From contig CM026425.1 of assembly GCA_014871385.1 (NCBI GenBank), positions 18,870,902 through 18,934,901 of the forward strand: DNA of 64,000 bases, in the 5' to 3' direction. The position numbers and the translations under genes are program-made. Below the pieces are notes generated by a model. That model made no database searches and had not been told where the DNA came from. It saw nothing but the letters and a program-made list of their open reading frames with translations. Source of the DNA: Ceratodon purpureus (lineage: Eukaryota > Streptophyta > Bryopsida > Pseudoditrichales > Ditrichaceae). Shown here in pieces: positions 11,512 through 64,000 of the stretch; the first letter of the stretch is position 1, and each line of letters starts with the position of its first letter.

Positions 11512-11631
11512 CATAACTTCTTCAAAACGTATCCAAATCAGGCTTATGAGGTGTTTTCTGGCATCTACATTTCCTGTAGATGCCAAAAAACATCTCATAA
11601 GTCCAATTCGGACAAGTTTTAAAGAAGTTAC
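11512..11631. repeat. Hairpin module D
   Basis: A fourth copy, about 277 bp after module C, so the paired-module arrangement of element 1 is preserved. The stem has a few mismatches but both arms are intact. Confidence 0.75.
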
Positions 11632-14400: not shown

Positions 14401-15120
14401 GGGAGGGGTGGCCGTCTCTAGAGAAAACGCAAGAGAAGAAGGAAGGCCATGCGAGACCCCGCCTCCAAGCGGACGGGGGGCCGTCCCTGCGGCCGTCGCC
14501 GGGGACGGCCGGCCGTCCCCACGGCCGTAACGGGGGTCGGCTGCGTCTCTCCGCGGTCGGCAACCGCGACGGCCGCGGGATCGGACGGCCCTCCGCGGCC
14601 AACCATGCCGGCCGCGGGCCGTCCGATCCCGCGGTTGTCGCCGTTGCCGATCGCGGGGACGGCCACGGGGACGGCCGCGGGATCGGACGGCCCGCGGTCG
14701 GCCGCGTTGCTCGAGCGGTCCCCGATGGCCTGCGCCGGGGTCGATCCGGGCCGTCGTTTCCCGCGGCCGTCTCCGAGGCCGTCCCCGCGGTCGGCCAGGG
14801 CGACGGCCGTGGGATCCGACGGCCCAGGAGGGCCGCCCACATCCGACGGCCCGCGATGTGCCAGCACTGCCGCATCTTGGCCGTCGGATCGACGTGCGGC
14901 CGTCCCCAACGACCCCGCGGCCGTCTCCGCGGCCGTCCCCGCGGCCGTCCCCGCAAACGGACGGCCGAGATGGGGCGTGGTGGCGGGATCAGCCGATCGG
15001 ACGGCTGGGGAATGTTTTTATCCCTCCGGGGTCGCAAAATTATTACCGCGACGTAATTCTCGAGCGTCGGGGACGCCACGTCCGGGACGGGGGACGTCCG
15101 GGTCGGACGTCTTGACGTCC
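14401..15120. repeat. GC-rich right subterminal region of hAT-like element 2
   Basis: About 700 bp dense in GGCCGTC, GACGGCC and GATCGG/CCGATC words, grading into GACGTCC repeats over the last 100 bp. Unlike the left arm it lacks the hairpin modules, so the two arms share only their inner AT-rich part and tip. Confidence 0.65.
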
Positions 15121-15154
15121 GGAGCCGGGTCGGACGTCTATTTGAACAACCTTG

Positions 15155-41397: not shown

Positions 41398-41830
41398 CTT
41401 GTCTTTCAGCACAGTGCGGTTTTGGTTGGCACAATCTTTTTCTTACTTGTGATAGTGCACTTAGTAGTGTCAAGTCACTAAATTATACACACAAGCTCAA
41501 ATGAATTCATCTCGTTTCAAACCAAAACAAATTCCATGCGATAATGACTCCCTCTAATCAACATTTGAGTTCATGACTAGGTGAACGCATAAAAATAAAA
41601 CTAGCTAGTTATATTGCAACTTAAGATACAAATCTTTAATTTTTTATTTGATCATATAATGATCATTAAATATTGACCATTGAACTACCACCAAAATGTC
41701 TAAACTCAAAATGAGGGAGTAGTACTATACTGCTAATTTTTGTCATAGGTTCTATAGTGGAACAAATAGATTATAATCACCCTAGTTTCCTTGAAAGATT
41801 GTAGTTTCCTTATCTTTTATAAATTCACCT
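41398..41830 (+). repeat. Degraded 5'-truncated LINE 3' end (+)
   Basis: GGTTGGCACAATC, the 'GTCAAGTCAC' block and the terminal block (GGGAGTAGTA, then TCCTTGAAAGATTGTAGTTTCC) follow the order of 16110-16540 with many substitutions. Confidence 0.5.
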
Positions 41831-42024
41831 TTGAAAATTCACCATGAGTATAATTTTTATCTATAACATGTTGATTTTTTGAGAATAATTAAAATCATAA
41901 GATGTATCCAAAAAAATGCAAAAGGCACATTTTTCAAAACATTATTAGTTTCCTTATGAAGAAAGTTTTTACACATTGCAGTATTCAAGTTTGTTATTTA
42001 AATGATCCTAACTATTTTTTTTAA

Positions 42025-42033
42025 TACATATAC

Positions 42034-42064
<31 letters not shown>

Positions 42065-42098
42065 CATATATATATATAGATATATATATATATATATA
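42025..42098. repeat. (TA)n microsatellite
   Basis: An almost pure TA tract with a few C and G interruptions. Confidence 0.95.
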
Positions 42099-42439
42099 AT
42101 TAAATCAAAATCCCAAATAGTTCTTCAATATTACATGGTTAAAAATTGTTTTTAAATATTAATATATGGAGTGTGTTTTGTAGATATAAGAAGGTGATTT
42201 AAAAATTCAAAAAAGATAATTTTAAGTGTTTATATATAAATTCTATAAAAATTCTTTGAATATACTAAATATAAATTTTTGAATAAAAATATTATAAATT
42301 TTATATCATAAAAAAACCATGTTTTTTTGTTTATATGTTTGTTTGTACTTCATACAGCAATTTCTCAAAAACTAAATTCATGTGTCTTTTCAAAACACAC
42401 AATATTTTTTAGTACTTCAAAGTTTACTTCAATATATTT

Positions 42440-42740
42440 GTTCTATCTCTAGACTTATGCCCGCATTACAAAGGAATAGAAGTAAGAAGTACTCCTCCAT
42501 TTTGAAAATAGACACTATAGTCACAACTAACTAATAACAAAATTTAAAATCGACTCAACTAAGGATTTATTGCTATAAAACAAGTTTTCTTCAAACGTCT
42601 CAACGTCAAGCCATGAACTCATTGCTGGTTGGTTGAGCGTGTATCTCATATAATTGGTTTGGATTTGATCCTTGTTGGACTCAGATGATGATATAGGGGG
42701 AATATAGTGGCTTGACATGGGTGAGTGAGTGATCACATGG
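42440..42740 (-). repeat. Degraded 5'-truncated LINE 3' end (-)
   Basis: The inverse counterpart of the preceding fragment: a terminal block around 42470-42530, then the tRNA-like module (GTCAAGCCATGAACTCATTG, TTGGTTGAGCGTGTATCTCAT). Together with 41398-41830 it forms a tail-to-tail pair around about 600 bp. Confidence 0.5.
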
Positions 42741-42925
42741 ACGAATGCTCTTAGAAATTTATCTATGTATTATTAGAAATAATCTACATTTTATGAGTTG
42801 ATGTATATTTTCACACATTGTATGTTATAAATGCGTAATTTGAATTTTTTTGAATTTTTTGAAAATCTCAAGAATTAAAAAATAACAAATATTTCATGTT
42901 TTTAAGATATAGATTAAAATATAAA

Positions 42926-45115
42926 ATTTTGTCGACGAGGAACTCGGAGAGGGTTTTAACTCCGAAAAATATTGAAGAAAAATCATAGTCGACGTTATAA
43001 TCGTTATAGTTGTATATGGTCGTAAAAAGAAAGAAGAGATTAAAGTTGGAGTTGAAAACTTGAAAGATTGTTTGAAAGATTATATAGATTCTATAGATTA
43101 TATACATGGCTATTCAAAAGGTTTTGCAAGGTTGTGAAAAGAAAGAAGAGATCGAAGTTGGAGTTGAAAAATTGAAAAATTGTTTGAAAGGTTAAATAGA
43201 TTATAAAGATTGTATAGATGACTATTCAAAATGTTATTGCAAAATTTATTTAAAACAATATTGATAAAATCAATTGACATATTTTAACCCCTAACTTATC
43301 TTAAAAAACAAATTTAACAATCTTTTGTTGTTTCGGGAAGCCTAGGTTTTAGGATTAAAATTCATATTTTTGACTAAGATTTTTGCTGAGTGCTTCCTAT
43401 ACTACAAAGTATATGTGCAAAAAATTGCAAAGTCAAATTCAATTTTTAGATTTTTTAAATGCAAATTTTAGTTTTCAATGTTTAGGTGGGCAGGAAACAA
43501 AAAATTATGTTTAAGGTTTTTTCGATTTTTTTTAAAAAGCATGTTCTTAATCAAATCACTACTTGAGTTCTAAAGTGCCCAAAGTCAAAATGTATACCAA
43601 TTCTACAAGGGCAGCCTTCAAAATTAACAAGAGCAAGCTTTACAATTTATAGTAATTTAAAGATACCTATTTATTGTTCATTTCCCCCCTAAACCAAATT
43701 AAATTAATGTTATTCATGTTTTACCAAATCATTGTTTTTAAATTTTGTGCCTTTGTGTACAAAACAATTTTAGTTTTTGCCTTAGAAACATGGGGGAACT
43801 CTAAATTTTTGCACATACATGCCCAACTTGGTTATCTGCATGAAAAAAAACATGAACAAATTTTTTGGGGTAACAATCATCAACTTGCCATTGGGCCCAT
43901 TTGCACCATGCTTCCCGACCAATGCCCAAAAAAACTTTTGCTGCAACTTTAATTGTTATAATCTCACGAATGAAAAACATCTAATTGTCAATTTTTGGAA
44001 TAGTACCTAAAAACAGGGTTTGGTACAAGATCTTACAGTTGGAAATCTAATAAAAGGAATAAATATTTGAATTGTACCCGGGAAGTCCATAGAGGTTGAA
44101 AATTGTAGTTTTGAAGTTTTAAGCTCCCAAAAACACAAAGAAATTTACGGGTTAAAAACAAAAGCAAAGCTCAACTTCATTCATTTTTGGTGTAAATTTT
44201 ATCTTATTTCATTTTTATATGAACACCTTTTCCTTTCTTACATATTACTTTTGATTTTTATGGAATTTTTTTCACAAAGTGGTTTTCAAGCAATTTTCAA
44301 ATTTAGACACTATAAACCATCATTCAAAAACCAAGTGACTTTGTTTTTAACTTCAATTTAATTTTGTCGACAAGGTACTCGGAGAGGGTTTTCACCCGAG
44401 AAAATTCCAAAGGGAATTGGAAGGCGTAGGCATCGGCGTGGTCGTGATTGTCGTCAAACCTACCCTTGCTTACAACTTCTTAAATATACATCTAAATATA
44501 CATTTATTTATTTACTTCCTAAATGTAAGACTTCAAACTTCTCTCGCGAGTGCCGCAATAGAAACTTCATTGTCAAATATGTTAATTTATTTTTAAATTA
44601 AAAAATATGGAATTTGTACCAAATAGAATGATGGATTGTGATTTTTGTCGACGGTTGTGCATAGCATTGCGTAGCCTTAGTTTTCCTTTAATTTTAATAA
44701 AATATTTCTACATTGGAATTATTCATTAAGGCTATGCAATCCTACGTAAAATTGTCGATAAAAATTAATTTTAAAAAAAAATTGAATACAAAAAATCAAA
44801 GGTATTCAGGTAAAATAAAATAAAATAAAATACACAAAGAATGAATGAAGTTTAGTTTTGCTTTTGTTTTTAAAATATGTCAATTGATTTTTTAAATATT
44901 GTTTGAAATAAAATTTTCAATGACCTTTTGAAGAGCCATCTATATAATCTATATAACCTTTCAAACAACCTTTCAAGTCTTCAACTCCAACTTCAATCTC
45001 TTCTCTTTTCACGACCTTAGAAGACAAATAATACCAAAGGATATAACAATGACGACACTCATGACGATGATTTAGCTGGTGTAAAACTTTCTCCAAATTC
45101 CTCGTCGATAGAATT
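42926..45115. mobile_element. Element with inverted terminal regions (about 2.2 kb)
   Basis: The left end ATTTTGTCGACGAGGAACTC is inverted at the right end (AATTCTATCGACGAGGAATT), and about 200 bp inside each end match in inverse orientation (GAAGAGATYGAAGTTGGAGTT). A third copy of the left tip lies at 44362-44395, and the inner block is also tandemly duplicated at 43030-43230. No coding capacity is recognised. Superfamily unassigned. Confidence 0.5.
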
Positions 45116-45446
45116 AAAAAAGTTATTAAATACATTTTCAGAAATTTACATTCTAACTTACATTCCTATTTTTATTTTTTTCTTAAATACTTTTATTAAA
45201 CAGCTATGAATTTGTAATAATCAAACTACATTGTGCATTTAGACCACCACAAATTGGTGGCGCCTATGTATGATCACTCCATGTGCTATTATAAATCTAT
45301 AAAATTTGGAAAAAGAATAATTATCCATTACTTTGTCCATGTATTTTTGCAACAAAGAATAGTAAAAGCTTCCAAATGATTTATGTTACAATACCATTTT
45401 CTTTATTTTAATTGATGCATATGTTTTTTACTTCAAAATATTATAT

Positions 45447-45588
45447 GATTAAAAAACGAGGAGGGAGTAGATCTTTACTTCCATACCTTTGTCCTGTGGG
45501 CATTGGATTGGGGGCGGATCGAACTGACACTTAATTCACTTCGGTCTCCTCCGGAGACCGTAGTTCTCTCTCTCTCTGATTAAGAAAC
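45447..45588 (+). mobile_element. Short LINE 3'-end retrocopy with 11-bp target duplication
   Basis: Bases 45458-45577 are 120 bp of LINE 3' terminus (hairpin CGGTCTCC/GGAGACCG then CTCTCTCTCT). GATTAAAAAAC before it and GATTAAGAAAC after it match at 10 of 11 positions. This is a 5'-truncated insertion by target-primed reverse transcription. Confidence 0.8.
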
Positions 45589-48500
45589 AAAAAACACGAA
45601 TTTGTATTAGAATGTACTGTACATATCATGAAAATATACCAAAAATATATGAAATTATTACAATGTGCCAAAGTTATTTTATATTGACTACATTGGTCTT
45701 AGATTCAAATTTTACACTATAAAAAATATAAAGTACAAAAAAAAAAAAATTCATATTCAAGATTTATAGTATTTAAAAAAAAATAGATGAATGGAATATA
45801 TGAAGATATATACAAACAAATATAATGTCATTTCTTTTAAGAACACATGATAAATAACTGAAAAATTTGAAATGACACATAAAAAATCCTTTAAGTAGTA
45901 AAAAGGTCGTGTATTTTGGAAAAACACATAAATTAAGTTTTATGTCAGGTTTTTTGGGGAGTTTTTAACTTGCTGACGGGTGGATAAACATCATTACTTT
46001 AGAATATAAATAAAAAAACCAAATGTTATTAATTAAATTGTAAATAATTTAGAAACTATAAATCACTTTCTTGATGAAAAAACACCTAGCTATAATGGGT
46101 GTATATTTTTTTTATTATGTAGATTTGTAATGGCTTATTTAAATGACCATACATTGACGTTGTAAAAACCAATGATTTGCCATGGTCAATAAGTCACCAC
46201 ACAATCTAGTTTTATATAACCTCTTTTAATTTTTGAAATTTAGAATGGAAACTCAAGATATATAGTAGTAATTTTTATTTTTGTAGCTAATTAAATTTGA
46301 TATAATTAATCATAATTCGATTTTATAGGATATATTGAAAATTTTAATATATTTACGTAATATTATTTTTAATTAATTCATTATTACAAATTAGAATATC
46401 TTTATTTGTTTCACGAGTCTTGAAATCAAAGTTTATTACCAATATGATTTTGCATGCAAATATGATTCAGAAGAGAACAATAGGAAAGGAGCTTTACATA
46501 AGTAGATTAGTAGATCCAACAATGTCATCAAGCATTGCAACTTTGTAACTTTCTAGTAACTTAGGAAAAAGATGATAAATAGCCTTGATATTATTTAAAA
46601 ATATTAATTTAATATTTACAAAAAAAAAAAAAAAACAAAAAAAAAAAAAAAACCAATATTGTAAAGAAAACAATGCTTATTTTCTATCAATCAAACATCC
46701 ATACTACAAAGAACTTCTCATAAAAACTAACTTATGTATCTTTTTAAATATACAAGATTTTTTTACTAAAAGAGTTGCTTATAGATACTTCGATACTATT
46801 TAGACAATTTCTTGTGTGTCTTTTGACACAATTTAGAATTCATATGATCATGTATATTTTTTTATAAAATTCATTCATATATTCTTTTCTAAAACCTTTG
46901 AAATCTTTAAATTAAAAATAAATTTAATTTTTTGGTGTTTTAATTTTAATTTTGGTACTAAAAGTAAGATCTTTAATGCAAGAATACTTCAATATTTTGT
47001 GTGTGGAAACTTTATACAATTATGCATATAGTTTCAAGAAAATGCACATTTAACATGCACTCTTTTCCTTGATCATTGAAATTTTTAGATTAGATAAAAG
47101 AAAGATTCAAATTTATTTTGTAGCACCATATTAAGTTTGACATTCCTCAAGAAAAGATATATTTATTTTGAAAAAGAAACCTTTAAAAATTATTTATGTT
47201 TATTTTTATATTAACATGAAATCATTACAATTAACCTCACATGGCTCTAAAACTCTCAAAAAATGATTCATTAATTTATTTTTCCTTGTGAGCAAGACTT
47301 CTATGGTGATATGGTAATCTTGTCCAAAAGAAAATTAATTTGGAAGCTATAATTACTTCATTGATGCAAAAACACCTTGGTAGACTATGAATGTAATTTC
47401 ATTATAATGTGAATTATAATGGCTTTTAGAAATAATTGTGCATTAAAGCCAAAAGCACCAATGATTTGTGGTGGCCAATAGGCCATCCTACAATCTAGTT
47501 ACTTAAAAAAATATAAAAACACATTAATATTTTATTAGTTCAATACAAAAATAACATGCATTGCTAAGTCCTTTATCTTATTGGTTTTATTTTGAAACAC
47601 CTTTTTTTGGCAATATTAGAACAAAAGTACTTTGGCAAATGGTTTAAAATATAGAAAAATGAAAATAGAAATATTTTTCTTGAACTTCATATAATTTTTA
47701 GTTTAATTTGAAAATGACCAATTTCAGTACCACTCTTTGCATTTCCTAGTCATTTTTTTCAAAATGAAGAATTCTTGGGCCAAAAGGATGTGCTAGGAAG
47801 CTATGGTATTCACGCGTGCAGGCATACATACAAGGAAAGTGCTGGTAAGGTAGGAGGCTCAAATGTTGTAGGGCCATTTAGAACTGAGCCTATAAGAGGG
47901 CTATTAATTGTACCTTCTGAATTGCAAATCATTTTTGTAGGCAGCCAATGTGAGTATTTGAGCTTCTTTTCAGGAAATGGAAGTGTTCATAATACGTACT
48001 AGGATGAACATAATTAGGACTTACTCCGACACCAACCTAAGGTGCACATTCTGAATTAGCACTTACTCCGCCACCAACGGAACATAATTAGAATATAATT
48101 GGTGCACATTAAAAGGATCATATTTGTTTACTTTTTGAAGGGTTGTGTGTAATTCCAAGGCATGTTTAACTTTGTTTTAACTGTGCCTATGAGTGCAATT
48201 GGTGACCTACGACCTTTTCCCTTTGAAATTGATTATCTCATGTGATTTGACTCGGAAAATTCTGAAAAAAAAAGACAGAGCTTGCTTTCTTCTCTCTGCC
48301 TTTGTTCTATAAAGTTTAGCACATTTGGTTGCACCTACAACGCTACAGATGGTTCCTTCTGCTTAGATGGACAGGTTTTGAGCCTCCTACCTTAGGGGCT
48401 ACTGGAATTGTGAGTTAGGGGACTTAGGCCCCCTTCCCACCAAGAGGTTCAAGTTGGATTACTGCGAAGTCAGTGCAATGGTATGGAACAGGGGTTTCAC

Positions 48501-48926
48501 ATCATACACAATTGTTAGGTGCCAAACCTAGTCAACATCAGATGTGGCACACGGAGTTAACAACAGTGATAGTAGGGAGGTAGGACAGAGGCACAGAAGT
48601 GGTATGGAAAGTGGGAATTGTCCACAAATAGTAAAAAAAGGAGTTGGAGGCAGAGATTTGGAGAGGGCCAATTGGACAGCTATTAACTTTGAGCTGAACT
48701 TGCTACGAGAGTGCTCCATGTCCACTTCGCTGTGAATCCACAAGACCATGCCACCCCAGCACCGAGCCTGGCTCGTCCAGAAAACCCTCTTTCCAAACTC
48801 CCTAGTGTAAACATGTTCTGGATATTCTCTTGTGTACAGAGTTGAGCTGAAATTAGCCGTAGTTCTGTAACTACCGGTGCGAAGAGGGCAATTATACAGT
48901 TTGCAAGCATGCCCCTTGGTCAAGAT
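45589..48926. other. AT-rich spacer
   Basis: No gene was recognised. An A-run broken by a single C occurs at 46620-46652. A short imperfect duplication (ATTAGSACTTACTCCGMCACCAAC) occurs at 48013-48110. Confidence 0.5.
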
Positions 48927-48928
48927 TA

Positions 48929-49302
48929 AGGTAGTGCGCCCAAAAACCGTCCCGGCCCAAAAACCGTCCCATAGGCTTGACATAGGCTGTTCCTGAAACT
49001 GTGCAAAATCATTCTAATTCCGTCTATGGCTGCAGAAATTGAGTGCTTGTGATTGGTGCAGAAACGTCCTATTCTCAGAATCCAAGTGGTCATATTAACC
49101 ATGACTCTAGGGACGGTTAGTGGAGCACCTAGGGCTGAACATTCAAAAATTCATAGGAAATTGTAGACTTACTCAAAAAATGATTTTTTTTTTGGGATGG
49201 CTTTGCACTAGCTTTGCACTTCATCCAAAAATTATAAAAAAATTCCACCACTATTCCAAATGAGCAAACCTGAAATTCGGACGGTTTCTGGGACCATTAC
49301 CT
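48929..49302. mobile_element. TA-flanked MITE 1 (374 bp)
   Basis: Inverted ends AGGTAGTGCGCCCAAAAACC and AGGTAATGGTCCCAGAAACC are flanked by TA on both sides, as for Tc1/mariner-type MITEs. Non-coding. Confidence 0.65.
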
Positions 49303-49559
49303 TAATGTACTTTTGATGTTTCCAGTTCCTTTGAGGGTAGAACTGAAAGGATTGAATAGTATTGTGAGTACAGTACTGTACACTACAGTAGAGAGACTTG
49401 TTCAGTACATTCTCTGGAAGAACTTCTTACTGTGACTTACCATTGTGGCTTTTGGCTTCATGCAAGACATTTCCTCGGTTTATCTCAGATGCTTTTTCCA
49501 CATTAACTTGTGTGCAGACTGATCATTGGATTCCTAGTCCACATCTCTTGCAGTCCTTA

Positions 49560-49891
49560 AGGTAGCGTCACCCACTCCCGTGGGTGTCCCCACTGCCGTG
49601 CACTACAGTGGCACCCCATCCCGTTTTACTTTGAGTGGGCACACCAATCTGGTAGCGTGTAATGTGTGTCCTGTGCTCACAGGAGTGGCACCACTTTGAC
49701 ACGGTTAGGGGTGCCTCACCACTTTCCTGTTTGAGCGACCAAATTGTACTCAAATCCTTTGATATTTATGGATTTTTTCTCACGATCCTATTTGTTTTGT
49801 ATTCGCCTTCTTTCCTATCTGGTTGCAAATTGTTTCCTTATTCTACAACTGTGCAATTTCCTTATACCCACGAGAGTGGGTGCCGCTACCT
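49560..49891. mobile_element. TA-flanked MITE 2 (332 bp)
   Basis: Ends AGGTAGCGTCACCCACTCCC and, inverted, AGGTAGCGGCACCCACTCTC are flanked by TA. The tip is shared with MITE 1. Each end also holds its own small palindrome ACCCACTCCCGTGGGT. Confidence 0.7.
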
Positions 49892-50107
49892 TACACTGTG
49901 TAGAATAAGCCACATGCTGGTTGGAGGCTGAAAATTCACATGCTGGCTAGAGGCTGAAAATTCACATGCATACAGGCCACATGACTCTTGTTAGGTACCA
50001 TCACATTACAGAGGGTCAGGTCATTTATGTTTCCCAAGGGTCACACCAGAACTTTGAAGGAGGTGACCTCCAAGTGATATAAGGTAGAACCACCTATTTA
50101 CAAACAT

Positions 50108-50981
50108 TTAACCCCTAAACGCCCAAGGGTGTTTTTCATCAAAACTGCCTGAAAACAGCCCCTCTTCAAAGCAAGGTGGATTTTGCAAACTTGGGGTTTT
50201 AATTAGTACATCTAACCGTAAGATCTTGTAGCTAACTTCTATGTCTACATGTCCACCAAATCTTACACACTCATTCCTCACTAATTGCAAGATCATAAAG
50301 TTCAAAGTTGAAAAACAAGTTTTTTTTCCTGCGCAAAAAGGGATCAGCAGGGTTTTGAAGGCCCAAATAACCATTTTTTTGCATTATGAATTTTGGGGGT
50401 TTTGATGCACGTCAAAGAAGACTGAGTTAGCTAATTGTGTTAAAAAAACCATATTCAAAAAAGTTGTAAAAGGTTGCCCAAAAAAAAAATTCCGCTAGGG
50501 GGTATAATGAAATTTACAAACAAAGGCCGTTTTTTGACAATAAAATAGTATATGGAAAAAAATTGGATTAAAAATCGGAGAGGTGGGAACATGCTCTACT
50601 GCCTTCTCTATACATAGAAATTTTTATTTTTGAAAAATATCAAAATCTCAATTTTTGGTGGAATTTCAAAGTTTTGGCTTTGGGCAGATTTTGGCAGATT
50701 TTGGCAATTTGGGGCAGTTTTGGGCAGTTTTGGGCAGAATTTGCTGCATTGACAGTGGCTGTGAGCTTGCCCGAAGTTTGGCAAAATGCAGCTCTTGACA
50801 CTCAAAACCCCGTAACTTTTTATCAGTATGTTAAAAGTAAATAAATGAAATCTGCACAAACCTCTTCAAAATGCCTATCTAAATTATTTTTTTCAAAGAT
50901 TTAGGAATTAAATTGGAATTCTAGGAACCTGTCCAAATTTTAAAAAAGCCCATTTCAAGACAATGGGCCTTTAGGGGATAA
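50108..50981. mobile_element. TTAA-flanked DNA element, copy B (874 bp)
   Basis: The same element as 24820-25687, at roughly 85-90 percent identity by eye, starting TTAACCCCTAAA and ending TTTAGGGGATAA. Non-coding. Confidence 0.65.
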
Positions 50982-51369
50982 AAGGATATCCTTGATGCAA
51001 AGTTGTGCATGAGCTGAATTTTTTCCACAGATTAGCAAATAATGGGATATGAGAATTGAAGTGAAATTATATTATTCTCATTCTAAATAAATAAGTTATG
51101 AATTTTCAAAGTTTTGTATAGCTAAACATCTACTTATGTGCATAGATCCCTCCTAAAAGCGTGCACAAAGACAACTCACTTTTTGGTGACTTGTGCCAAT
51201 CAATGAGTGCCTCGTATTGGATTTGTTTTAGAAATAGAATCTTGCTTGCACTAAATAGGTGATGCATTGCTTGTGAATGCATGCATTTATAGGATACGAC
51301 TATGGGATGTTGTTTGCCAATAGGTGGTTTTACCTTATGGTTGGTTGTCCTAACACCACCCACTGCCCA

Positions 51370-51600
51370 AAAATCTATAAGTAGATTCTCCAAAACCGAT
51401 CAGTAAATTCTCCAAAACCGATTAGTAAATTTCCCAAAAACCGATCAGTAGATTCATCAAAACCGATCAGTAGATTCCTCAAACCTATCAGTAGATTCTC
51501 CAAAACCGATCAGTAGATTCCTCAAAACCGATCAGTAGATTCCCCAAAACCAATCAGTAGATTCCCCAAACCAATCAGTAAATTCTCCAAAACCGACTAA
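51370..51600 (+). repeat. 22-bp tandem repeat, about 10 units
   Basis: Units of CAGTAGATTCYCCAAAACCGAT follow each other with small variation. Confidence 0.9.
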
Positions 51601-51768
51601 GCCTAATTCCTAGATTGTGAAAAATAGATGTACCTCATTTGTACATTAAAGCATGTGATTGGTTTTGGGTCACATGTTACTTTGCACTTTGGAATTCTGT
51701 AGAAATTTAAGAAATGCATATTTCTTGTTGCATTTTTTTCCAATCCTTCTGAAATCCTATTTTGAAGA

Positions 51769-51772
<4 letters not shown>

Positions 51773-51818
<46 letters not shown>

Positions 51819-51819
51819 C
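51773..51819. repeat. T homopolymer (about 47 nt)
   Basis: A pure T tract, possibly the tail of a minus-strand retroposon. A C12 run follows at 51913-51926. Confidence 0.9.
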
Positions 51820-51929
51820 TGAATTTACCACTGCCCTAAACTGCTTCAGTTGGTGGTTTTAGGACATTCAACCATATTGCTGTTAAAATTGGGCAATTTC
51901 AGGGTCCATCCCTCCCCCCCCCCCCCAAA

Positions 51930-53659
51930 TTCCTGAAGGGATGCTCCATTCTGTAATTCTGCATTCCCAATCTTTCTGAAGTACTCTCCAATAAATTTGA
52001 TTAGTGACAGAGATATTATGCATGCCTACAGCATGTCCAAATACAGTGTTAGAAACACGTAATACCTTTTGGTGTATTTTGGAGTATAATACAGTATACG
52101 ACACCTTTAATTCAATCTTTTAAAGTACACAAAAATCTGCAGAAAATTTAGAGGACGTCCAGACAACCCCTTCACCAACGTCAGTTCAATACCCCATTCC
52201 ATTCTGTACATGACGCACTGTTCACATAAATATACAACCCTTTCAAACTTTAATAATTTGATTTATACTAAATAATATAAATAATACATTTCTATGAAAA
52301 ATAATCTACCCAAATGAAAAATATGGATGTTAATGTTCTGTAGCTTGAATCAACGAAATTTGTAGATGGGAGTATGAATGTAATAAATTCTAAAAACCCC
52401 AAATTCCAAACTTAAGTTTGCACATCAGTTAGATGATACTGATATTTTTACATATCAATAACATATGTGGCTCATGGGTAATTGACATTCGTTGTTCTTA
52501 TTCAACAATTTCATTAAAACATGACACGATGATAACATTATTGATTGAATATATATTTTGGATTAAAACTTATATAACTGATGATAATACATGTACATGT
52601 TGTTCAATGAAAACATGTAACATTGGTTTGAATGCATCCATGTCATGTTATATGATCCATATATATGATTGTTGTTGAATATATGTGAAAATAGTATAAA
52701 ACTTCAATTGAACGATTGAATAAATCCCTCTCACATTCATCCTTATATAATTGATATATGTGGTTGTCATCGAAAAATTGCGTCACTTAAATTAAAAACT
52801 TTACTTGTGTGGTTGGACACATTTCTTTGAAATGCTACCATTATTATTTGATCCATATGTATGGTTTTTGTTTAATAACTGTGATGATTACAAAATGTTA
52901 TGTATGTTATTGAACATGTTTGTTTAAGATTTCATTTATATATAATTGGTACATGTGGCCAACCTGGTTATAATAGAGTCCTTTGAAATATTATTGTTAT
53001 TCGATGATTAACACAAATGGTTATCAATGAGATGGAATATAGAATATATGTATATAATCAAACATATTTCTTATTAAATCTTATTATATCATTAATTATT
53101 GATAACATTCTTTGAGGATAACGAACTTTTGATATTTTCAAATGAGAGTTTCATGTATTAAATTGAAATTTTAAATGAATTTAATATACATTTTATTGTC
53201 TTGATAGATCCATGTGAAATAAAGTTATTGGGTAGGTGACTAACATGCATGTTTATATTACAATTATTGTAAAAAAAGAATCAAATATTAAATTATTATT
53301 ATATCAATAAAATTAACAAGAAATTTCCTTTGACACATGACTAATGTGCTTGACCAGTACATAATGTTAATATTGAAGACTAAATGAATTCACGTGGGAT
53401 GTTGTCATTTTTATACATTTTACACATACATTCATCTTCAAATATCCATTAAATATGAAAAAACTTGGTGTTCTATAAATTCAAGATCAAACTAACTTTA
53501 TTTCCCTTAAAAGTTTTATCAAGAATTTGCAAAATGTACCATGAGATTTTGATATTATTTTCTTACTTTTGGCTTACTTTTTGAACTAAGTCGGACTTGA
53601 AATATTTTTCAATATAACACTTCCATTTTGAACATTACATACCATAATTATGTTTGGAT
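51930..53659. other. AT-rich spacer
   Basis: No gene or terminal repeat was recognised. Composition changes sharply near 53680. Confidence 0.5.
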
Positions 53660-54279
53660 GTGTGGGGGCTCAAATCAGTGTAAATTCAGTGGTCCTAGCA
53701 CCCCTGACTATAATCCTCGCCCACGTCTTAATGGCATTCGCTATTTCTGTTCCCTTCCGCGGCGGTCCCGCGAGACAGGGCCCACGGCGCGAGACCCTTC
53801 TTTCGCTCCAGAATTCTTTCCGTCGCTCCCCCCCTCTCGCGAGCCGTGCCCGGGCTCGGGATGCCACGTCGGACCCCGTCTCGAAACCCTCCCTGCCACG
53901 TCCGCATCCTCCACCCTGTCTCGTCTCGGAACCCAGAAAGACGAGACACCCCATGCATGGGCTGTCTCGCGAGACAGCCTCATGGCACCATGGCCCATGG
54001 GCATGCATGGAGATTTTCATCCATCCGAGACGGACAGAATTCGTCACGTCCTGTCGAATGACCTTCCACGTTTTAGGGTATGATGTCTCATTTTCGTGGG
54101 TGTCACTTCTGCTTTCTCCTGTCACTTCTGCTTTCAGTCTGTCTCGTCGGAGCTGTTTCGGGTGTTGAGGTGATGATGGGGTTCTGTGGGTGGAGATCAT
54201 GCGCCGTCTCTTGCAGCCTTTTCCTCGATTTTGATTTCTGAGGTTTTGTAGGTGTGATGATGGCGTCTCCCCCCTGCTC

Positions 54280-54290
54280 CCTGTATAAAT
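54280..54290 (+). promoter_or_regulatory. Candidate TATA box for the C48-like gene
   Basis: CTGTATAAATT lies about 940 bp upstream of the ATG at 55226. Transcription would start near 54315. A donor-like GTATGT at 54679 and an acceptor at 55207-55208 could remove an intron from the 5' UTR. Short upstream ORFs (54342, 54404) would lie in the leader. Confidence 0.4.
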
Positions 54291-55225
54291 TGGCAGCCTC
54301 CTGGAAAAACGGACTCATTTGATGCCATTGCCTGAGGAGAGTTGCGAGAGTTGTCTCGTGGGGTGGTGAGAGTGTTCCCTCGAGAGGAGGTGCGAGGGTT
54401 TATATGCGCGCGTTGTCAAAGTTTGCTAATTTCTCTGCCAATTTCTCTCCGTTTCCTTCTCCGCTGTCTCGCGCCATTGTTAGATGTGTTACGCTGCGTG
54501 TTTGTGAGGTGGAGAGTGTTGTGCGAGAGGCGCTTTCATGGGCGGAGAGTGTTGTGATAGAGTTTGAGAGTGTTGTGAGAACTGAGGAGTCGGAGTCTGT
54601 TGCTGGAGCCGCGATCGAGGAGTTTGTGCGATTTGGTCGGAGGAGGAGTGCAGAGGCGATTTCGCAGAGACAATCGAGGTATGTATACGTTCATCATCTT
54701 CTATGTGTTTCTTTTTATGGTGTTCCGGAGAGACGATAGCGATTTTGTTGCCGGAGTTTGTCACAGAGATTAGTTTTAGGGTTTAGTAGTCATACGTCAC
54801 GACGTTCTGGGGTTTAGGGTTTAGGATAGACATGTCTCGTGGAATACTGTTCAGGTGTATCTTGTCTGCGGTCGTTGTCGGTGGCCTCACTGCTATTGTC
54901 GAAATCAAATGAGGACGACGATGTCGCCCCCGTTACAGGAGTGTCTCGCGTTGGAATTGGGAGGGAGTTCTTGAGTATACCAATTTTGTGCATAGAATCT
55001 TAATTTCTGTTCCGATTCGTCGTTCATGTTTCGCCGAGACAAAGATCCGTCGTAGAGGCTCCTTCCTGTCGTCCACAGTTCCTGCCGAATTTGATGTGCA
55101 CGGTTTTTGCTTCGCAGCTGTCTCGCAGTCTCGGCGCTGTGTCTGTGTCTCGGAAGGTCTTATAAACTTCGCATCCAGGTTACTAACCTCCGCCCCTGTT
55201 TGTAATAGGTTCAAGTTAGCGAGAC

Positions 55226-58200
55226 ATGGCTCCCGAGTACAGGAGGAACCTCCAGATCACGGACGACGGCGTCACGGAGGTCCACGAAAGCGACAAGAAG
55301 TTGTTCACGGAACACTACACATGGGAAGAGTGGAAGAATTTGCTCCTGGAGTGTCATAGCGCGCCGGTGATGTTAGGACGTCGATTGTTCTGCTGCAAGC
55401 ACAAATGCCGTGGCAAGAATGGGGAGCCCATGTGTGCTCAGAAGGCGCGTCTAAATACTCATAGATGGCACGGGTGCCCCCTAAATGTCGACGCGAACGG
55501 TTTCGTCATCCCGGAGAAGATGTACCCGAATCTGCTTGAGAAGAACGTTACCATTGACAAGCTGCAAGCGGGTGTCTCGCCCCAGAAGTTGGTGAGGGAC
55601 TACGTGAACGAGACACAGGCTATGTTGCGGCGAGGGGAGCCGGTCAAATTCCAACAAGGCGTCCCTGCGATTCGTGGTCCGAGTGATAGATCGCCGAAGA
55701 AGCAGACGAAGAAACCCATGAAGGCCGAGAGAAAATCTGTCCCTGATAGGTTGGCTGTCAGGACTTTGGAAATGGTGCTGAGCAGTTCAGATTCCGAGGC
55801 AGAGGCAGACAGTGATTTTGTGGCCTCGGACTCGCCCGTGGTGGAGCGAAGACCGTTCATCCCCAATCCCGAGACGGCACCGACGCCTGCTGTTGTCCCT
55901 ATCATTCTCTCACCGCCCCGGCGAGACACATCTGCAGGCGAAGAGGACGCCACGGGAGCTGTACCTGATACGTTCATCGTTCTTCCTCGGGCAGGACTCA
56001 CTCCTCGACAGCGAGACAAGAAAGGACGAGACATTGAAGTGAAGGCTTCCAAGCCGGAGGAGGAACCCGAGGAGAGGGAGTTTTACTCTCGGAAAAACAA
56101 ACGCAAGACCACCCCGGCACAGAGGGTCCCAGCGGCAAGGAGCGAGACAAACACGACGGCAGCGAAGCGACCGAAACCATCGGACGAGAAACCGCCATCC
56201 CCAATCCGGGACGAGACAGCCGGGTACGCCTCGGATACGTCTCGGATACGTCCCGGGGACGGCTCTGATATGGCCGTCTCCACTCCCACTGTCCACACAG
56301 AGGACACTGGAGCGGTGGCTATGGTGGTCGACGAGGCCCCGATGGACGTTCCCCTGAGCCCAATGTCCGCCTTAATGCGAGACAAGGAGAAGGTTGTGGA
56401 GGAGGCTCAAGAGGCAGCGGAGTCCCTGTTTACAATAGATCCAATTCGCCAGCCCGAGACACGCTTGGGACACACGGGCCTCACCATCCTAATGGATTAT
56501 GGGCTTTTTGGGGAGGAGAGGGAGTTCCACACGTGGGACAGGGGAACTCTTCGGACCAGACTGGGGGAGTTCTTGAAGAAGGAGGGGCGCGAGACAATCA
56601 TCTCGCTTACCTACTTCCGATTCCAGAAGTTGAATCGAAAGGTACGACATCTCCTCCCTGGAGTTCTCAACTTCATTATTTTATAATAACTTGTACTTGT
56701 CGTGAATATGTTGCGATATTTTAATTCATTTCCGTCTATCTTTCATACTTGTCTCGCACTTCAATCTGTGCCTCAAGGTTGCTAACGGGGGAGGACTGCC
56801 GTACCCTCTGAATTGCAGAATTCTCTATACTCCGAGAGAGATAGCGGTCTAGCGGCAGATCTTTCTGAAGTGTTGGACACCGGGGAAATGTCCGAGACAG
56901 AGATGGATCGTCTCGCGAACGCCTGCATGGACTACTACGTCAATGTCCACGACTGGAAGAAACACGAGGAGGCCGTAGATGCCCAGCGCCTTCATAACGC
57001 CAGACTGAAGGAGAAATTCATCGCGGACAGGGTTGCAGCGTGGGAGGAGTCCAAGGCTGGGGAGTTGGAGGAAGTGTCATGGGGTTGGAATCCCCTGTAC
57101 CACATATGCGCGAAGAACCCCGCTGTCTCGGAGAGGCTACCTCCCATGCCCTGGAAGCACAACGAAACGGAGGCGCGAGACGTGGTCAAGGCACTCGGTA
57201 CGAGACGGACGCTGCCAGTCGGAGCAGGTCTGGAGGCAAAGATCATTCGCGTTTTCCTCCTCGTCCACAATATTCGGTACAGGTCAGTATTGTGTACTTG
57301 TTTATTTTTATTTTTTCCTCCTGAGGTACTTTATTCAATTCAACATAATTTAAAATAAAAAAAAAACCGTCACGGGCCCCTCATATTTTCCTCGTGCTCT
57401 GGTATAACAGCTCAGCGGACCCACTGCAAGGAGCACTGGACAAGAGTGTCCAGGAGAAGATCTCTTCGCCTGGAGCTCTAGACACAGCGAGGTGTCTCGT
57501 TCAGGCCGCTGGGAGTACACTGTTCGGTGCTGATCCAAACGCCGAGACGGAGACGTCGGACGCCATTACAGCAGCATGCATGTCCCTCCACAGCGGTGTC
57601 TCGGATGACCTGCAGGCGTGGCTCCTTTCAGTCCAGGCTCGGGCACTGGAGGACTTTGCATCTTCCGAGACGGAATCCTTCATGACGGCGTGGCAGTTGA
57701 CGGCGCCCGTCTCGGAAGAGGTATTCCCAGAGTGCTTGAAGATTTTGCGGCAAGCATTAACTCGACGGGAGGACCTAGATCTCCGTTGGATCCCTCTCGC
57801 GGATGGTAAGTTCATATCCGACACAGAGGCCATGTTTTGATGTCTTGTAGTAAGAATGTCTCGGAAATAGTTCATGCGTTCCGAAGCTAACGGCTTGGAC
57901 CTTCTTTGCAGAGCCGGCCTGGGCCTCTGGTTTGCGCAGTGCGTTGTCAGTGCGCACTTTCTTGAATGGTGTCGCTCGAGACCGGTGGTCCGCTGCCGAG
58001 ACCGCTGTTGACGGGGTTTCGCGAGACAGGTTGGTGTACGGGCACTTGAACGTCCATGGTCACGCGATACCTGTCGACGAACCTGCACAAGACTCGGAAG
58101 GGACCGAGACAGCGAGCCCTTCATCCCCATTTCACAACGAAATGAATGAGGTTGTTGACATTGCCTCCGTGGATTCGCCTCGCCGGTACGAGAGTCCGCG

Positions 58201-59992
58201 AAAGGAGGCTGCCTCATTGGAGACAGTGGCAGCCGCGAAACCCAGAGGTGAGTGTCCCGGAACATGGACCCAAGAATTGCGAGACGGGTTCAGTTCCCTG
58301 CCATTGGGCAATGGCATTCCCTCTGCATCCCAGATGGACTGTTTCGGATTCTCGCAATTACTTTCTTGCACACCAACTCATCATACAGTGTCCAGAGGGA
58401 CATTAATTAACGGGGGTTGCAATATTGTGTCTTTACTAGACGCAGTGGCGGCGTCCGAGACAGTGGTCGAGGAGGACAAGGAGCCGGAGTCAGACGAGGG
58501 ACAGTCCTCTGGAATTGGGTCACGAGAGGAAGGACTCAAGATTTGGGACCTCGACTTTGGCGCACCAATACCGCCGAGTAAATTGAAACCGGGGAGCCAC
58601 TGGATTTTTAAATTCATGGACCCTGCCACGCCTGTTCCGAACACATTGGAGCCCCCGAAGGATTTCAAGACGGAGCTTGTCTCGGAGGGAGTACAGATGG
58701 ATTGGAAGGCAGTGCTTGGGGTATTGATGATTCCATTCCACGTTGGCTGCTTCAAGTAAGTTCTTAAGTTCGTGAATGGCATGTTTTATTACTCATGGTA
58801 TGTTTAGGCTCGTTGTGTCCATGTTTTTTATTCTTGAAAATGTTTCGCGGTGTCCCGATATCATGTTCCCATAGCGCTGTCCAGGTTCTACCCTGTCTCG
58901 GATCTAACATTATCACTGTCTCCTATTTCAGGCAAGGGCATGTGGCCGAGACGGAGTACGAGGATTACATCATCTACTTTGGTAACGACCCCCGGATTGC
59001 CGTGAAGATCCCTGTCCTGGTCCAAGAGTGGGAGTGCGTACTCAGACCACAGGCGTGCATGATTGGGCCATTCGTGGACCTCCTCCTGCGGCACTTGGTT
59101 CTGAGATCGCCGGACCACGTCGCGAGACAGTATGTGGTGGCAGAATCCAACGTCAATACTGTCTTGGATGCGCACATCCTGGAGTGCAACGGGGACTGGG
59201 AATGGCTGGGGAGTTTCGGAATCCGGTGGCTCTCAGGTTGCAATGGCCGGGAGAACACGTTGGTGATCCCTTATTGCGATAAGGATCACTGGACCCCTTT
59301 TTGTTGTGGAGCTTGACACGACATATCACCTTGGATCCCTCCTCCACATACACGACACGGAGGCTCGAGACAACTTCGTCACGTTGGTGCACATCGCGTG
59401 GGCGAGCTCCAGGGGAATTGTTCCGGGATCGCAGGACTGGTGGAAGGTAGTGTCTCGCGGATGTGTCTCGCTCAAGGCCCCGAACCAGAAGGAGTCATGG
59501 GAGTGCGGATACGCGATGAGTTTCCAGTTCTGGCAGTACATGGTCACTCGTGGATATGGTTGTCGTTTCCCGAAGCCTGCGGAGAAAATGAAGAAGAAGC
59601 GGTGGTTGAAATGGACTGGGCAGCAAATGCAGTTGTGGTTCTTGGAGCAGCTGTACATCGAGACAGCCCGTGCGGACGACAGATTACCAAGACCGAGGAT
59701 CTGCGGGACTGGACTGAATGACTTGCCTAACCTGATGGAGGGGGATATCGTTGTCCCGGACTACGTCACAGTAAAAGGCGGGGTCCAAGTGTTCGGTATT
59801 TCGCCAGCGATGTCTCGGACCGGGTACAAGGTTGATGCGTTCCACATCCGTGAACCACGAGCACCAGGTTCTGAGGAGGAGGAAGACACAAAGGCGAGGC
59901 TCGGAAGCGCCACCAAGTCCAGGAAGTCTAAGCGTGAGAAATTCGAGAAGATGGTGCACTCTCCTTCAGGCTCGGCGAGACGACGGCTGTAG
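55226..59992 (+). CDS. MULE-borne C48 (Ulp1-like) cysteine protease-like protein, one frameshift
   Basis: Five exons (55226-56641, 56819-57282, 57411-57805, 57912-58755, 58932-59992) join in phase with GT-AG borders, about 1390 codons. The N-terminal 120 residues include a Cys/His cluster (CCKHKC, C, HRWHGC). A long charged, Ser/Pro-rich middle follows with no recognised domain. The last exon has the order of C48 peptidases: 'CDKDHWTPF' (His), 'LHIHDTEA' (Asp), 'QKESWECGYAM' (oxyanion Gln and catalytic Cys). A run of five T near 59298-59302 puts the sequence out of frame straight after the His. With one base fewer the frames join, so this is either a recent null mutation or an assembly error. 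Many plant MULEs (Kaonashi type) carry C48 genes. A role in desumoylation or in countering silencing is inference. It is convergent with the transposase gene. Confidence 0.65.
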
Positions 59993-60447
59993 ACTGCGTT
60001 TTTGTTTTGGGGCGAGACAGGCAGGAGACTTGTACAGGACTGCTCAGTACATAGTACCAGTTTTGGGGATGGGAGGGAGACGTACAGTAGTAGAGATGTA
60101 GTGCATAGTTGAAGGACACAATGACAGTGTATAGATGAATGGTATAGTCCGAGACAGTCCAAGGAAGGGAAGTGACTGTCTCGCCTCTCGTTTGTAGTGG
60201 ACTCCCTGTGACTAGTTCAGAGCTCAGTGTCTCGTATGTGGGATGCTTGGCTCCCAGGGGTCGGAGAGGAAAGAAGAAATTTTTTTGTACAAAATTTTCC
60301 ATGGGAAACCGTGTGACGTATAATTAGAAAACGGAAGATTCTTTTATATCCGATACTTGTCTACATTGAGCATAAAAGAGTATCGATAATTCCCAGGCTA
60401 CAATCCGAGACAGAACTTCAATAAATTCGCTACAACACAATCTAGAG

Positions 60448-60834
60448 CTACAGTTTACCGAATGCTGATGGTCCTAACATCCTCCTTGACCTAGTGGGGT
60501 TCCAAGGGGTGAGACACATGCCTACGTACGTAAGGGACTCGTAGTCGACCCCGTCTCGCCTCGAGACAGTTCGTGTTCGGGACTGCCCGCCAAGGTATTG
60601 TCTCGGTATACGGTACACGTCCACTGGATTCCGTTTCGCAGAGCTCATTCTCCGAGACGATAACGCTATATCATATGATGCCTCCAAGAACAATTGCTCC
60701 AGTACCTCTAAAGCGTCGGCCTCCAATTCCTGGAGATCACAGCAGCCTGTGGCACCCGAGACAGGCCCCTCCGGATAGACTCCCGGGACCGTGTCCTCCC
60801 CCCCATTGAAGAAGTTAACGTTCATGGACTCCAT
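60448..60834 (-). CDS. Small hypothetical protein downstream of the transposase
   Basis: An ATG-started frame of 128 codons on the transposase strand, 187 bp after the transposase stop. It has an acidic first half with 'DLQELEADALEVLEQLF' (helical) and a basic second half. No family is recognised. It could be a third MULE gene, an exon of a longer transcript or chance; the GC-rich context makes long ORFs easy. Confidence 0.3.
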   Translation of the reverse strand: MESMNVNFFNGGEDTVPGVYPEGPVSGATGCCDLQELEADALEVLEQLFLEASYDIALSSRRMSSAKRNPVDVYRIPRQYLGGQSRTRTVSRRDGVDYESLTYVGMCLTPWNPTRSRRMLGPSAFGKL

Positions 60835-61020
60835 TCTGCGAACCCAATTGAACGCCAAACGGGAACTACGGAAACTGGTACCCCGTGATTATGAATCCCA
60901 CTCAACACTTGCAGAAATAAAAAGAAAGTACGAGTCGTGGCGGGTGTACTTATAGGTAGAGTTCCCGCTGTCTCGATCCGAGACACATCGAATATAGAAA
61001 TCCGAGACAGGGACGTGGGG

Positions 61021-64000
61021 TCACTCCTGCGTGGATCTGGGCGGACGTCCGACGCGTCCCCCGTCGAGGAAATCCCTATTCCGTTTCAGCGAGTTGGGCT
61101 TGTTCGGGTCATTCCTCTCAAATCTTGGGGCGTCTCGCTCCGTTGGATGAAGGAGACCGGCTAGAATCCTCGTTTCCATGGCAGCGTGTCTCGTATTCAT
61201 CTCTGCCAATTCCGCCGCCAGGTGCTTCTGAATGACGTAGTGTCTCGCAGCTCGTTCCGTGATTTCTCTTCCCGTCTGGTCTATGACGCGCTTCATTCTT
61301 GCCACCTCGTCTTCTTGACTCGGTGGAGGGTCGACCGTGGGCACATCCTGTGTCTCGCTGTTGGCATTCCAGTCTTCGGGGACATCCTGCGACGGTCCGG
61401 TTTCAGTCTCGCTTGGAATTCCCGGTCCCGGGGGATTTAGGAGAGCCGAGACACCGCCTAGCTTGGTACCGTACAGTGTCCCGCAGACCTTCACAATCGT
61501 CCCGTCGGCAAGGTCAGGCCTCATTAGACGAAGAACCTTCAGCTGATGTTTGCAAAGATTTCCTTTCTGGGCCCATACACATTCGCAAACAGCCCACTCG
61601 GTATCGGGATTGTACACGGCGTATCTAATGTGGGCTCGCTTGGACGACGTGACTATGGCGGGGTCACCGGGTCGAGACGGCAGCGAGACAGAGGAGTCCG
61701 GGATCTTGTTCGCCGATATAATGGAGTTTCTAACGATCTGCTCTGCCTTCTTGTTTGTTATGAAGCCATTCTCCTTCATGTATTGGTTGTAGTCGTATTT
61801 CGTTACGACGTCGTTTGTGAGCTCGTGAATGAGCCAATCGAGACGCCTTCCATCCAACCAACTCTTCTCGGCCTTCAGAGTGGCCTTTGTGTGTCCATGA
61901 TATGACTCAATTCCTGCGTTCGTGTCTTGACCAGCATGTGGTATGTGCCTGTTCCCTGTCACCCACATTTCGGGCTTTATCATCCAGTACTTTTCAATGT
62001 ACGCCCAGAAAGCAGCAGCGCCGGACACTAATGTCTTCAGTCTCGCGAACCTAGCCTTCACGTAGTCCAAGACAGACAACCTCGAATCGGGGGACTCCTC
62101 GATGTACATGAGCGCTCCCATTTCCCGCAGCGCCCACGCTCTGGTGATTATTCCTTTAATTTTGGCACAGGCGTTCTTTTGCCAGGCCCGCCTCACATGC
62201 CAGAGGCATAGGAATACTTTAATCTTGGGCCATACCAACCTATGAAACGCACGAGACATATCAGGGGTACAGAAGTGGAGGTGCAGTATGCGTGGTGGGG
62301 AATCACGAGACAGTGTGCGGAACGGTATGTCACGAGACAGCTTGCGAGTCGGCAAATCACGAGACAGTACGCAGAGAGAGATATCAGAATACGTACATTA
62401 TGGCGTTAATCTCAGCTAATGCATCATCGACAATGAATGCACTCGGTAGCCACTCTGGCATCTTTGAAACTAGCTTCTGCTTGATTGCGGTGAGCCAGGG
62501 AGTGATGTCTTTCTCTTTTGCGGATTGCGCGATAATGAAAGCAACAGGGACTCCATTCCGCCACTTGTCGAACACCATCACAGTGTACAGGGGATACTGC
62601 AAGAGCGAGACAGATGTGAATGTCTCGAAAAACGAAATGAGTACTGAACGAGACAAAGTCGAAATATATGGGCCTCACCTTCCAGTGATTTGTTCCGAAC
62701 GTAGCGTCCATCGAGACAATACTTTCGTGGCCGTGCTGTAGCATCATCTTGAACTGGAACTCGTTTTGGATGCCGATGACAAACGGCAAATTCGCAGACG
62801 TGAGAGTTCCCGAGACAGTGCCTTTCTTAACGAGACGGTAGAAAAAAACATCGTCCGGGTTAGCCTCCACCCACATCTTCACGGATTCGGCGTCGTTGTC
62901 GTCTCTCTGATACTCTGTTTTCCTCAATTCCTTGGCGATGTTTCGGACATCCCACTCCCGTAGAAAGTGACATCGTTCAGGCGGAACACCCTCGGCTACG
63001 AGACGCATCACCTCGGCACGGTGGGTAGAAAGAATCTTGTTACTGGAAACGCCAGACCGGAGGCTCGACAGTACCCAATTCCGGAGCTCCGTCGGGATTT
63101 GTTTTTCGAAACGACCACGCTCGCCGGGTAGGACGGCGCCGTGGACCACTAGCGATGCAGGATTTTCGTGTCTCGGGTTATAATATACAATCTCGACCAC
63201 GTCTCGGAGATAGTAGAGCTGCTTCACCTGGAATCTGCACACGCATCCTCTCTTGATGCTCATTCCAGTCGCAGCAGCGCCAATTCTGGGCCTCCCCTTC
63301 CCACGCCCGTTGGGAATCAACTTGCCCTTGACGTTGTATTTCGGTTTCTTCGTCTCCATCTCGGGAGTAATTGTGAGGACCTTGTCGGACAAGTCCTTCG
63401 GCCCGTACTGGCACTCGTACCTGTGCCGAAAATACAATACTAAGTTAGCGAGCCGTTATCGACTGTCTCGGAACCCGTTTCGCGAATGCTGTCTCGTTAT
63501 CGAAGAACATCGGGACACGGACATCACGTATAAACAAATAGAAGAACATACAAAACGTTACCCAGAAGTATTCGGTTTCGGAAATGAACTAACCAGAAAG
63601 TATGAAGGCCAGTATTGTGTCTCGGCTCGTGACCAGGCGGCTTCCCCTTGGGTCGTTTCAAGAATCTTGTCTGGACATCGGACCTTCGTTTGCTTTCGCC
63701 TTCGACGAAGTCCTCCACTCTTTCCCACGGAATGTAAGCAACATGATACCTTTTCTCCGAGACATCACCCTCGGAGCGCCCGATTCCAAGCCCGGACTCC
63801 GGGACGTTCCGTCTACAGTATTCGACAACATCAGGATACGAATTCGGTTGGCGGAAGTCCCACTTGATGTCTTTGAACGTGAAGGGACCGCGAGGTGGGA
63901 ACTGTACCGCGTCTCGGTATCCCTGCAGAATGTGACCGTTCTTCTGCATGTAGATTGTCTCCCACGGTCCAATCCAGGAGGTGTCTACCTCCACCTTCAC
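61021..64000 (-). CDS. MULE transposase, 5' end outside window (4 exons visible)
   Basis: Read on the minus strand, exons 64000-63594, 63420-62679, 62596-62397 and 62239-61021 join in phase with GT-AG borders, about 855 residues ending in TGA. The N-terminal part contains a Cys/His region ('ECQYGP', 'GCVCRFQVKQLYYL') like the FAR1/WRKY-type zinc finger of MULEs. The DDE core has 'SMDATFGTNHWKYPL' (first Asp), 'FIVDDALAEINAIM' (second Asp), 'FLCLWHVRRAW' (C-x2-H) and 'NAGIESYHG' (Glu). A SWIM zinc finger 'CECVWAQKGNLCKH' follows, then a Pro-rich tail with a helical segment. Every expected catalytic residue is present and no stop interrupts, so the protein is likely functional. It would cut and paste the element by binding terminal repeats in the nucleus. 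Confidence 0.85.

Follow-up and report, generated by a model that had tools for sequence, protein, structure and literature searches.

A short word spread through the exons and noncoding DNA of a Ceratodon purpureus MULE: a candidate self-address for an anti-silencing protein

Here we describe part of a MULE, a DNA transposon, at the right end of a 64,000-nucleotide stretch of Ceratodon purpureus DNA (the window), and a seven-base word, CGAGACA or its complement TGTCTCG, that recurs throughout it. The element is set in AT-rich DNA: the GC content rises from 0.33 (53601-53700) to 0.62 (53701-53800), which puts its left edge at about 53660-53700. Its right end lies outside the window, so the 10 kb that the initial annotation gave as its size is a minimum length. 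Two genes face each other within it, a transposase gene on the minus strand and a second gene on the plus strand. All splice models were built by hand, and the exonic and noncoding counts below rest on them. The features are as follows.

53660..64000, unstranded: motif-saturated part of the MULE, marked by the GC step and the first CGAGACA at 53771, with 71 words in total
53700..55225, unstranded: left noncoding flank; 13 words wholly inside against 0.36 expected
53960..53979, unstranded: 20-bp perfect palindrome with TGTCTCG and CGAGACA (element positions 301-320, 100% inverted match)
55226..59995, plus: second gene, six exons in a hand-made splice model; 24 exonic words
55226-56641, 56819-57282, 57411-57805, 57912-58247, 58440-58755, 58932-59995, plus: exons of the second gene (hand-made model)
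59996..61020, unstranded: intergenic region between the second gene and the transposase gene; 11 words against 0.20 expected
60969..60985, unstranded: close inverted pair TGTCTCG...CGAGACA, words at 60969 and 60979
61021..64000, minus: MULE transposase gene, N-terminus cut by the window end; 10 exonic words
63594-64000, 62679-63420, 62397-62596, 61021-62239, minus: exons of the transposase gene (hand-made four-exon model)
62240..62396, minus: transposase intron; 4 words, of which three recur every 27 bp in an imperfect tandem repeat

By its protein matches the element is a MULE, as had been annotated. The transposase model is open through 855 codons and matches the Pfam family PF10551 (E 4.8e-10; 40.2 bits versus a cut-off of 27.6), with a SWIM match (E 0.097) that falls below its own Pfam cut-off; its main exon has 58 protein relatives, the nearest at 91% identity, and 20 of them carry a precomputed PF10551 assignment. 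Inspection of the sequence shows a Cys/His-rich stretch, a possible DNA-binding region, at the start of the second gene's product; this N-terminal region has no credible PDB match (best E 0.32), no family was found for it, and the 1099-residue spliced first part of the gene gave no Pfam match at E up to 10. For the C-terminus, a search of 177,635 PDB sequences gives a single match at E up to 10, the Ulp1-like SUMO protease 6dg4 (E 0.27), whose alignment takes in HWTL and CG—suggestive of an Ulp1-like domain, not proof. One search per gene piece returned relatives of the second gene at 98% (P0059) and 78% (P0060), and at 72% (P0061) and 70% (P0062); one of these searches scored only those 7992 candidates that had most words in common with the query. 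Between the two genes, in the orientation of the transposase, an open reading frame (60448-60858, minus) includes a 128-codon stretch at 60451-60834 that contains words and has no Pfam match; it is a possible third gene. The ratio of observed to expected CpG is 0.99 over the element (0.91 with the core of the word masked), which would fit low methylation or youth; it decides nothing, because eleven 5-kb blocks over 1-55000 span 0.29 to 1.14.

Exact counting finds 39 copies of CGAGACA and 32 of TGTCTCG in 53660-64000, 71 words in all, the last at 63758—a mean spacing of 143 bp and about 30 times the density expected by chance. The remaining 53.7 kb (1-53659) hold 12 words, four of which come from one repeat present twice (4581/13428 and 4905/13752), and none lies between 40840 and 53771. 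Dinucleotide shuffles of the 10,341 bp gave a mean of 2.22 (standard deviation 1.51, maximum 7, n=300), and the commonest 7-mer of any kind across 50 such shuffles reached at most 12. The initial annotation had counted about 70 words between 53770 and 63766 and about ten before them, with one or two expected by chance, and these hand estimates hold up.

The word has sharp edges. A clear rise is seen for just one of its 21 one-letter neighbours, CGAGACG (23 versus 2.5 in shuffles); the other 20 sum to 35 against 35.6±6.0 in 200 shuffles, the highest among them being CGGGACA and CGAAACA at 5 each versus 1.8, and there is therefore no halo of decayed sites. CGAGACA, the form first reported, accounts for 71 sites; the fuller word is a core CGAGAC (100 copies in the element) followed by A (71) or G (23), with T rare directly before it (10 of 100), G favoured at the eighth position (49 of 100) and bases further out near random. 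Because the flanks are near random, most sites appear to be separate and not parts of a longer duplicated unit; one exception was observed, the 27-bp intron array (TRF 62301-62368, 2.5 copies; words at 62306, 62333 and 62360). With the core masked, the top words are GGA/CTCC-type runs, the maximum for any 7-mer is 11, and no comparable second word emerges.

Along the element the words are spread evenly, at 8, 8, 8, 5, 4, 7, 8, 8, 8 and 6 per successive kilobase and 1 in the final 341 bp, and at least one occurs in 8 of 10 noncoding segments and 9 of 10 exons. Exons hold 34 of the 71 (5.2 per kb) and noncoding DNA 37 (9.9 per kb; binomial p 0.0066), in agreement with the earlier statement that exons, introns and flanks carry them on both strands; the palindrome that it described at 53960-53979 is exact, and the inverted pair at 60969/60979 is present. 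Five words lie in the first 300 bp (53701-54000), a density equalled inside the element at 60960 and 62560, so the visible end is not special. Spacing is more even than random (coefficient of variation 0.78 versus 0.98; p 0.017 in one uncorrected test), neighbouring cores fall into orientation classes of 33, 23, 22 and 21, and no helical phasing (10.5 bp) was seen among the cores. Given the random flanks, the mixed orientation, the lack of 10.5-bp phasing and the lack of a comparable second word, the words read as separate double-stranded sites rather than as copied blocks or an RNA element.

Codon choice in the MULE genes is bent toward the word. Compared with 1000 synonymous-codon shuffles, the 7-mer occurs 19 times against 2.14 (maximum 8) in the second gene up to a break in its frame, 5 times against 0.61 (maximum 3) in the last part of that gene, and 10 times against 0.82 (maximum 4) in the transposase, which bears out the claim that protein constraint cannot explain the words. 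The core is used at 55 of the 98 places where the protein sequence permits it: 30 of 57 in the first frame (the second gene to the break), 6 of 12 in the last part and 19 of 29 in the transposase, where synonymous shuffles (n=500) yield 7.4 (maximum 16), 1.5 (maximum 5) and 2.8 (maximum 8), respectively. The spelling T-GTC-TCG serves for 10 of the 18 Val-Ser pairs, CGA-GAC for 11 of the 17 Arg-Asp pairs and C-GAG-AC for 16 of the 23 Glu-Thr pairs. Control words of comparable composition, six in all, stay close to the synonymous-shuffle expectation in 17 of 18 cells; the exception is GAGCAC in the short last part of the second gene (1 versus 0.05). Less clearly shown are a bending of the amino-acid sequence and its persistence in close relatives. 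The first frame has 57 permitted places, above every one of 150 residue shuffles (32.5±5.8, maximum 52). For the control GAGACC, which overlaps the word, permitted places are raised in the same frame (40 versus 24.1), and it is used only twice there.

Relatives were compared as proteins, setting the permitted core places of each against its own residue shuffles. The z-score is 3.8 for the nearest transposase relative (P0001, 91% identity), 2.4 for P0061, 1.9 for P0062 and 1.8 for both P0059 and P0060; it is 0.6 for P0002 (57%) and P0003 (62%), 0.06 to 1.65 for six JGI proteins, and on average -0.62 (maximum 1.29) for 49 other distant relatives. In P0061 and P0062 together, the Glu-Thr dipeptides (17 versus 7.4) agree with such a bias, and Arg-Asp (2 versus 4.3) and Val-Ser (5 versus 4.5) disagree with it. 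At aligned sites the core is still encodable in 7 of 10, 7 of 10, 6 of 6, 5 of 6 and 9 of 10 cases in relatives of 74-98% aligned identity, and in 2 of 10, 3 of 10, 1 of 10, 1 of 9 and 0 of 9 cases in P0002, P0003 and three picked distant relatives (43-61%), for which the backgrounds are 0.34, 0.39, 0.28, 0.21 and 0.20. Core sites of the second gene align without gaps in 10 of 12 cases in P0061 and in all 6 in P0060. These comparisons suggest a gain of the word within this clade and its retention across roughly a quarter of amino-acid divergence, on small numbers and relatives that are not independent of one another.

Element-specific words are not unique to the MULE in this window. GACGGCC has 63 of its 64 window copies between 5564 and 14960, and 45 of them lie in a 4.3-kb insertion (about 10819-15154; shuffle mean 0.51, maximum 4, n=200) that sits in a LINE, an uninterrupted copy of which is found at 30487-25685. 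The insertion has ATGGCCA(C) at both edges, a 7-8 bp duplication, and inverted arms (11686-12321 and 14541-13906, 98%), and a related copy lies at 4097-6533; it looks like a non-autonomous hAT-type element. Its word is concentrated in GC-rich end blocks, where some copies form tandem arrays, as subterminal repeats would; the MULE stands out by the even, exon-wide spread of its own. Elsewhere in the window, CTGGTCC occurs 22 times in 1-10341, perhaps from Gln/Asp-rich repeats of the open reading frame 19-2106, and a tandem array with a 22-bp unit, AGTAGATTCTCCAAAACCGATC, occupies 51366-51596.

As the word is double-stranded, strand-blind, sharp, spread through the MULE and nearly limited to it within the window, it is best read as a selected protein-binding site; the initial annotation had likewise seen DNA selected for a site, and the sharp edges, random flanks and mixed orientation agree. 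The site would be CGAGACA, with CGAGACG tolerated, and the protein recognising it would bind DNA sequence-specifically and most probably be encoded by the MULE itself. As the binder we favour the large protein of the second gene (55226-59995), with its Cys/His-rich N-terminal stretch and putative Ulp1-like C-terminus. Such a protein would work like VANC or KIU of Arabidopsis, binding many sites and coating only the DNA of its own family, and the coating would remove or block silencing marks along the whole MULE, gene bodies included. The density of the word, its sharpness, its spread over the element and the bending of codon choice are observed; the binding of a protein to it, the origin of that protein in the element, the choice of gene and the anti-silencing purpose are what we infer. 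Taken together, the reading that the whole MULE, exons included, has been selected for double-stranded sites of a self-encoded, VANC-like coating protein with an anti-silencing role has, in our estimate, a probability of roughly 0.5.

The known systems offer parallels. VANC21 binds YAGTATTAY, VANC6 has the motifs AGTTGTCC/AGTTGTAC, the density of motifs is described as important for targeting, and in Arabidopsis VANC21 leads to loss of methylation over the whole element (PMC5735166). VANDAL21 and VANC21 resemble the present case: a MULE, extra genes beside the transposase, a dense, short, element-specific word, and a family specificity ascribed to that word. Some VANC genes of VANDAL MULEs are said in a review to carry an Ulp1 domain; among them KIU of Kaonashi, a MULE-borne gene with an Ulp1-type domain, is reported to recognise motifs in its own family, which lie in noncoding regions (PMC13317346). 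The present Ulp1 match is weak, at E 0.27. The hypomethylation of VANDAL coding regions has been called enigmatic, the binding being in noncoding DNA (PMC10398659), and the build-up of the noncoding, often tandem VANC sites is, per the authors, hard to explain by simple base substitution (PMC5735166). A literature search, covering mostly papers outside subscription and judged by title, found none on CGAGACA in transposons and, among the matches listed for motifs in transposon coding DNA, only the two VANC papers; this does not prove that the pattern is unpublished.

Several observations weigh against this VANC-like reading. VANC sites are described as mainly noncoding, in one orientation and often tandem, with exon probes bound much less (PMC5735166, PMC10398659), whereas here 34 of 71 are exonic, the orientation is mixed and there is one short array; the VANC parallel drawn by the initial annotation agrees in the dense word and gains from a weak Ulp1-like match, and the arrangement of the words does not fit. 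The VANC domains DUF1985 and DUF287, and peptidase C48, were not found by Pfam at E up to 10 in the second gene, nor by Pfam in P0059-P0062, although divergence of the gene could hide DUF1985 and DUF287. The Ulp1 link is a single match, with E 1.8 for the domain alone, and both AlphaFold models were unusable (pLDDT 37.0 and 35.6, from shallow alignments). In the present copy the frame of the second gene is broken near 59303; P0059, at 98% over the last part, reads through the break, so intact copies exist. Permitted places are only weakly raised in the last part of the second gene (12 versus 6.3±2.7, maximum 14) and in the transposase (29 versus 19.9±4.2, where the shuffle maximum also reaches 29), and retention of the core in the close relatives is only slightly higher than the matching backgrounds of 0.56, 0.58, 0.96, 0.64 and 0.82. 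DNA copies of MULE relatives were not found in IMG/VR, queried with the transposase and P0059, or in prokaryote genomes; a triple-word scan of IMG/VR gave at least 120 stretches, and the best of those listed had 0.69 words per kb on its poorer strand, versus 3.1 (32 in 10.3 kb) in the MULE.

Some causes can be rejected. Chance or composition is ruled out by the dinucleotide shuffles, synonymous-codon shuffles, segment counts and neighbour counts; protein constraint alone by the synonymous and residue shuffles with six control words; an RNA-level signal by the use of both strands and of introns and intergenic DNA alike; and tandem duplication as a general cause by the single 27-bp intron array and the random flanks. 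The word might instead be the transposase's own binding site, spread over the element for synapsis, cis-preference or titration and not for anti-silencing, which we consider unlikely. Transposases that bind repeated or subterminal sites have been described, and those DNA transposons likewise hold several copies of one short, element-bound word; this window also holds the hAT-like element with GACGGCC in its end blocks, and self-encoded transposase binding accounts for the sharpness equally well. Such sites are placed at the ends or in inverted repeats, not through exons. The five words in the first 300 bp would suit a terminal function, but the even counts per kilobase and the equal clusters at 60960 and 62560 leave the visible end without distinction, and it is not obvious what words deep in exons would do for transposition.

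A host factor may have been recruited in place of an element-encoded protein, the MULE being loaded with ARF-type sites for expression or open chromatin. TGTCTC is the classical auxin response element and TGTCGG a strong ARF variant; all 71 words contain TGTCTC, sharing six bases with the former, and the host is plant-like (the best matches of a kinase open reading frame at 19337-20443 are plant receptor kinases). The MULE word differs, however, in needing the following G, which just 6 of its 77 TGTCTC lack, and in tolerating C for the first T, with CGTCTCG also raised (23); TGTCGG is not enriched, the element having 3 copies and the remaining DNA of the window 12. The needed G and the lack of TGTCGG enrichment rule out the auxin response element as such. 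A host activator would presumably not need exonic sites, and the literature search listed no paper joining TGTCTCG with 'auxin response element'; we regard a host-factor site as improbable. A shade less probable still is that a functionless word was seeded without selection, by biased mutation, gene conversion or short-patch copying. Copying does contribute locally, in the three words of the 27-bp repeat, but the bases beside the core are near random, one-letter neighbours show no excess, the ungapped core alignments in P0061 and P0060 fit substitution and not insertion, and codon choice and first-frame amino acids favour the core. That the word is simply a property of GC-rich or genic DNA in this genome is very hard to credit: other 10-kb stretches of the window have other top words, CGAGACA is absent from 40840 to 53771, and four other open reading frames of the window, three of them with GC 0.57-0.59, have 0-1 CGAGAC cores each and no CGAGACA; in these four, the enrichment in unrelated GC-rich genes that the initial annotation would have counted against itself is not seen.

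If the VANC-like reading holds, a docking site has been written through the whole MULE, exons too, and its codons and part of its amino acids have been bent into self-address labels that mark gene bodies for anti-silencing; we place this fuller statement slightly short of even odds. The sites known so far from VANC-type anti-silencing are noncoding and often tandem. The many sites found here in coding DNA, without sign of copying, imply that selection for the site itself has been strong and sustained, and that a self-address can also be reached by a second route that is largely non-tandem. That a DNA-level signal should compete with protein coding over the length of an element is unusual; if the reading is true, one could test directly how an element that resists silencing marks its gene bodies and the rest of a long target.

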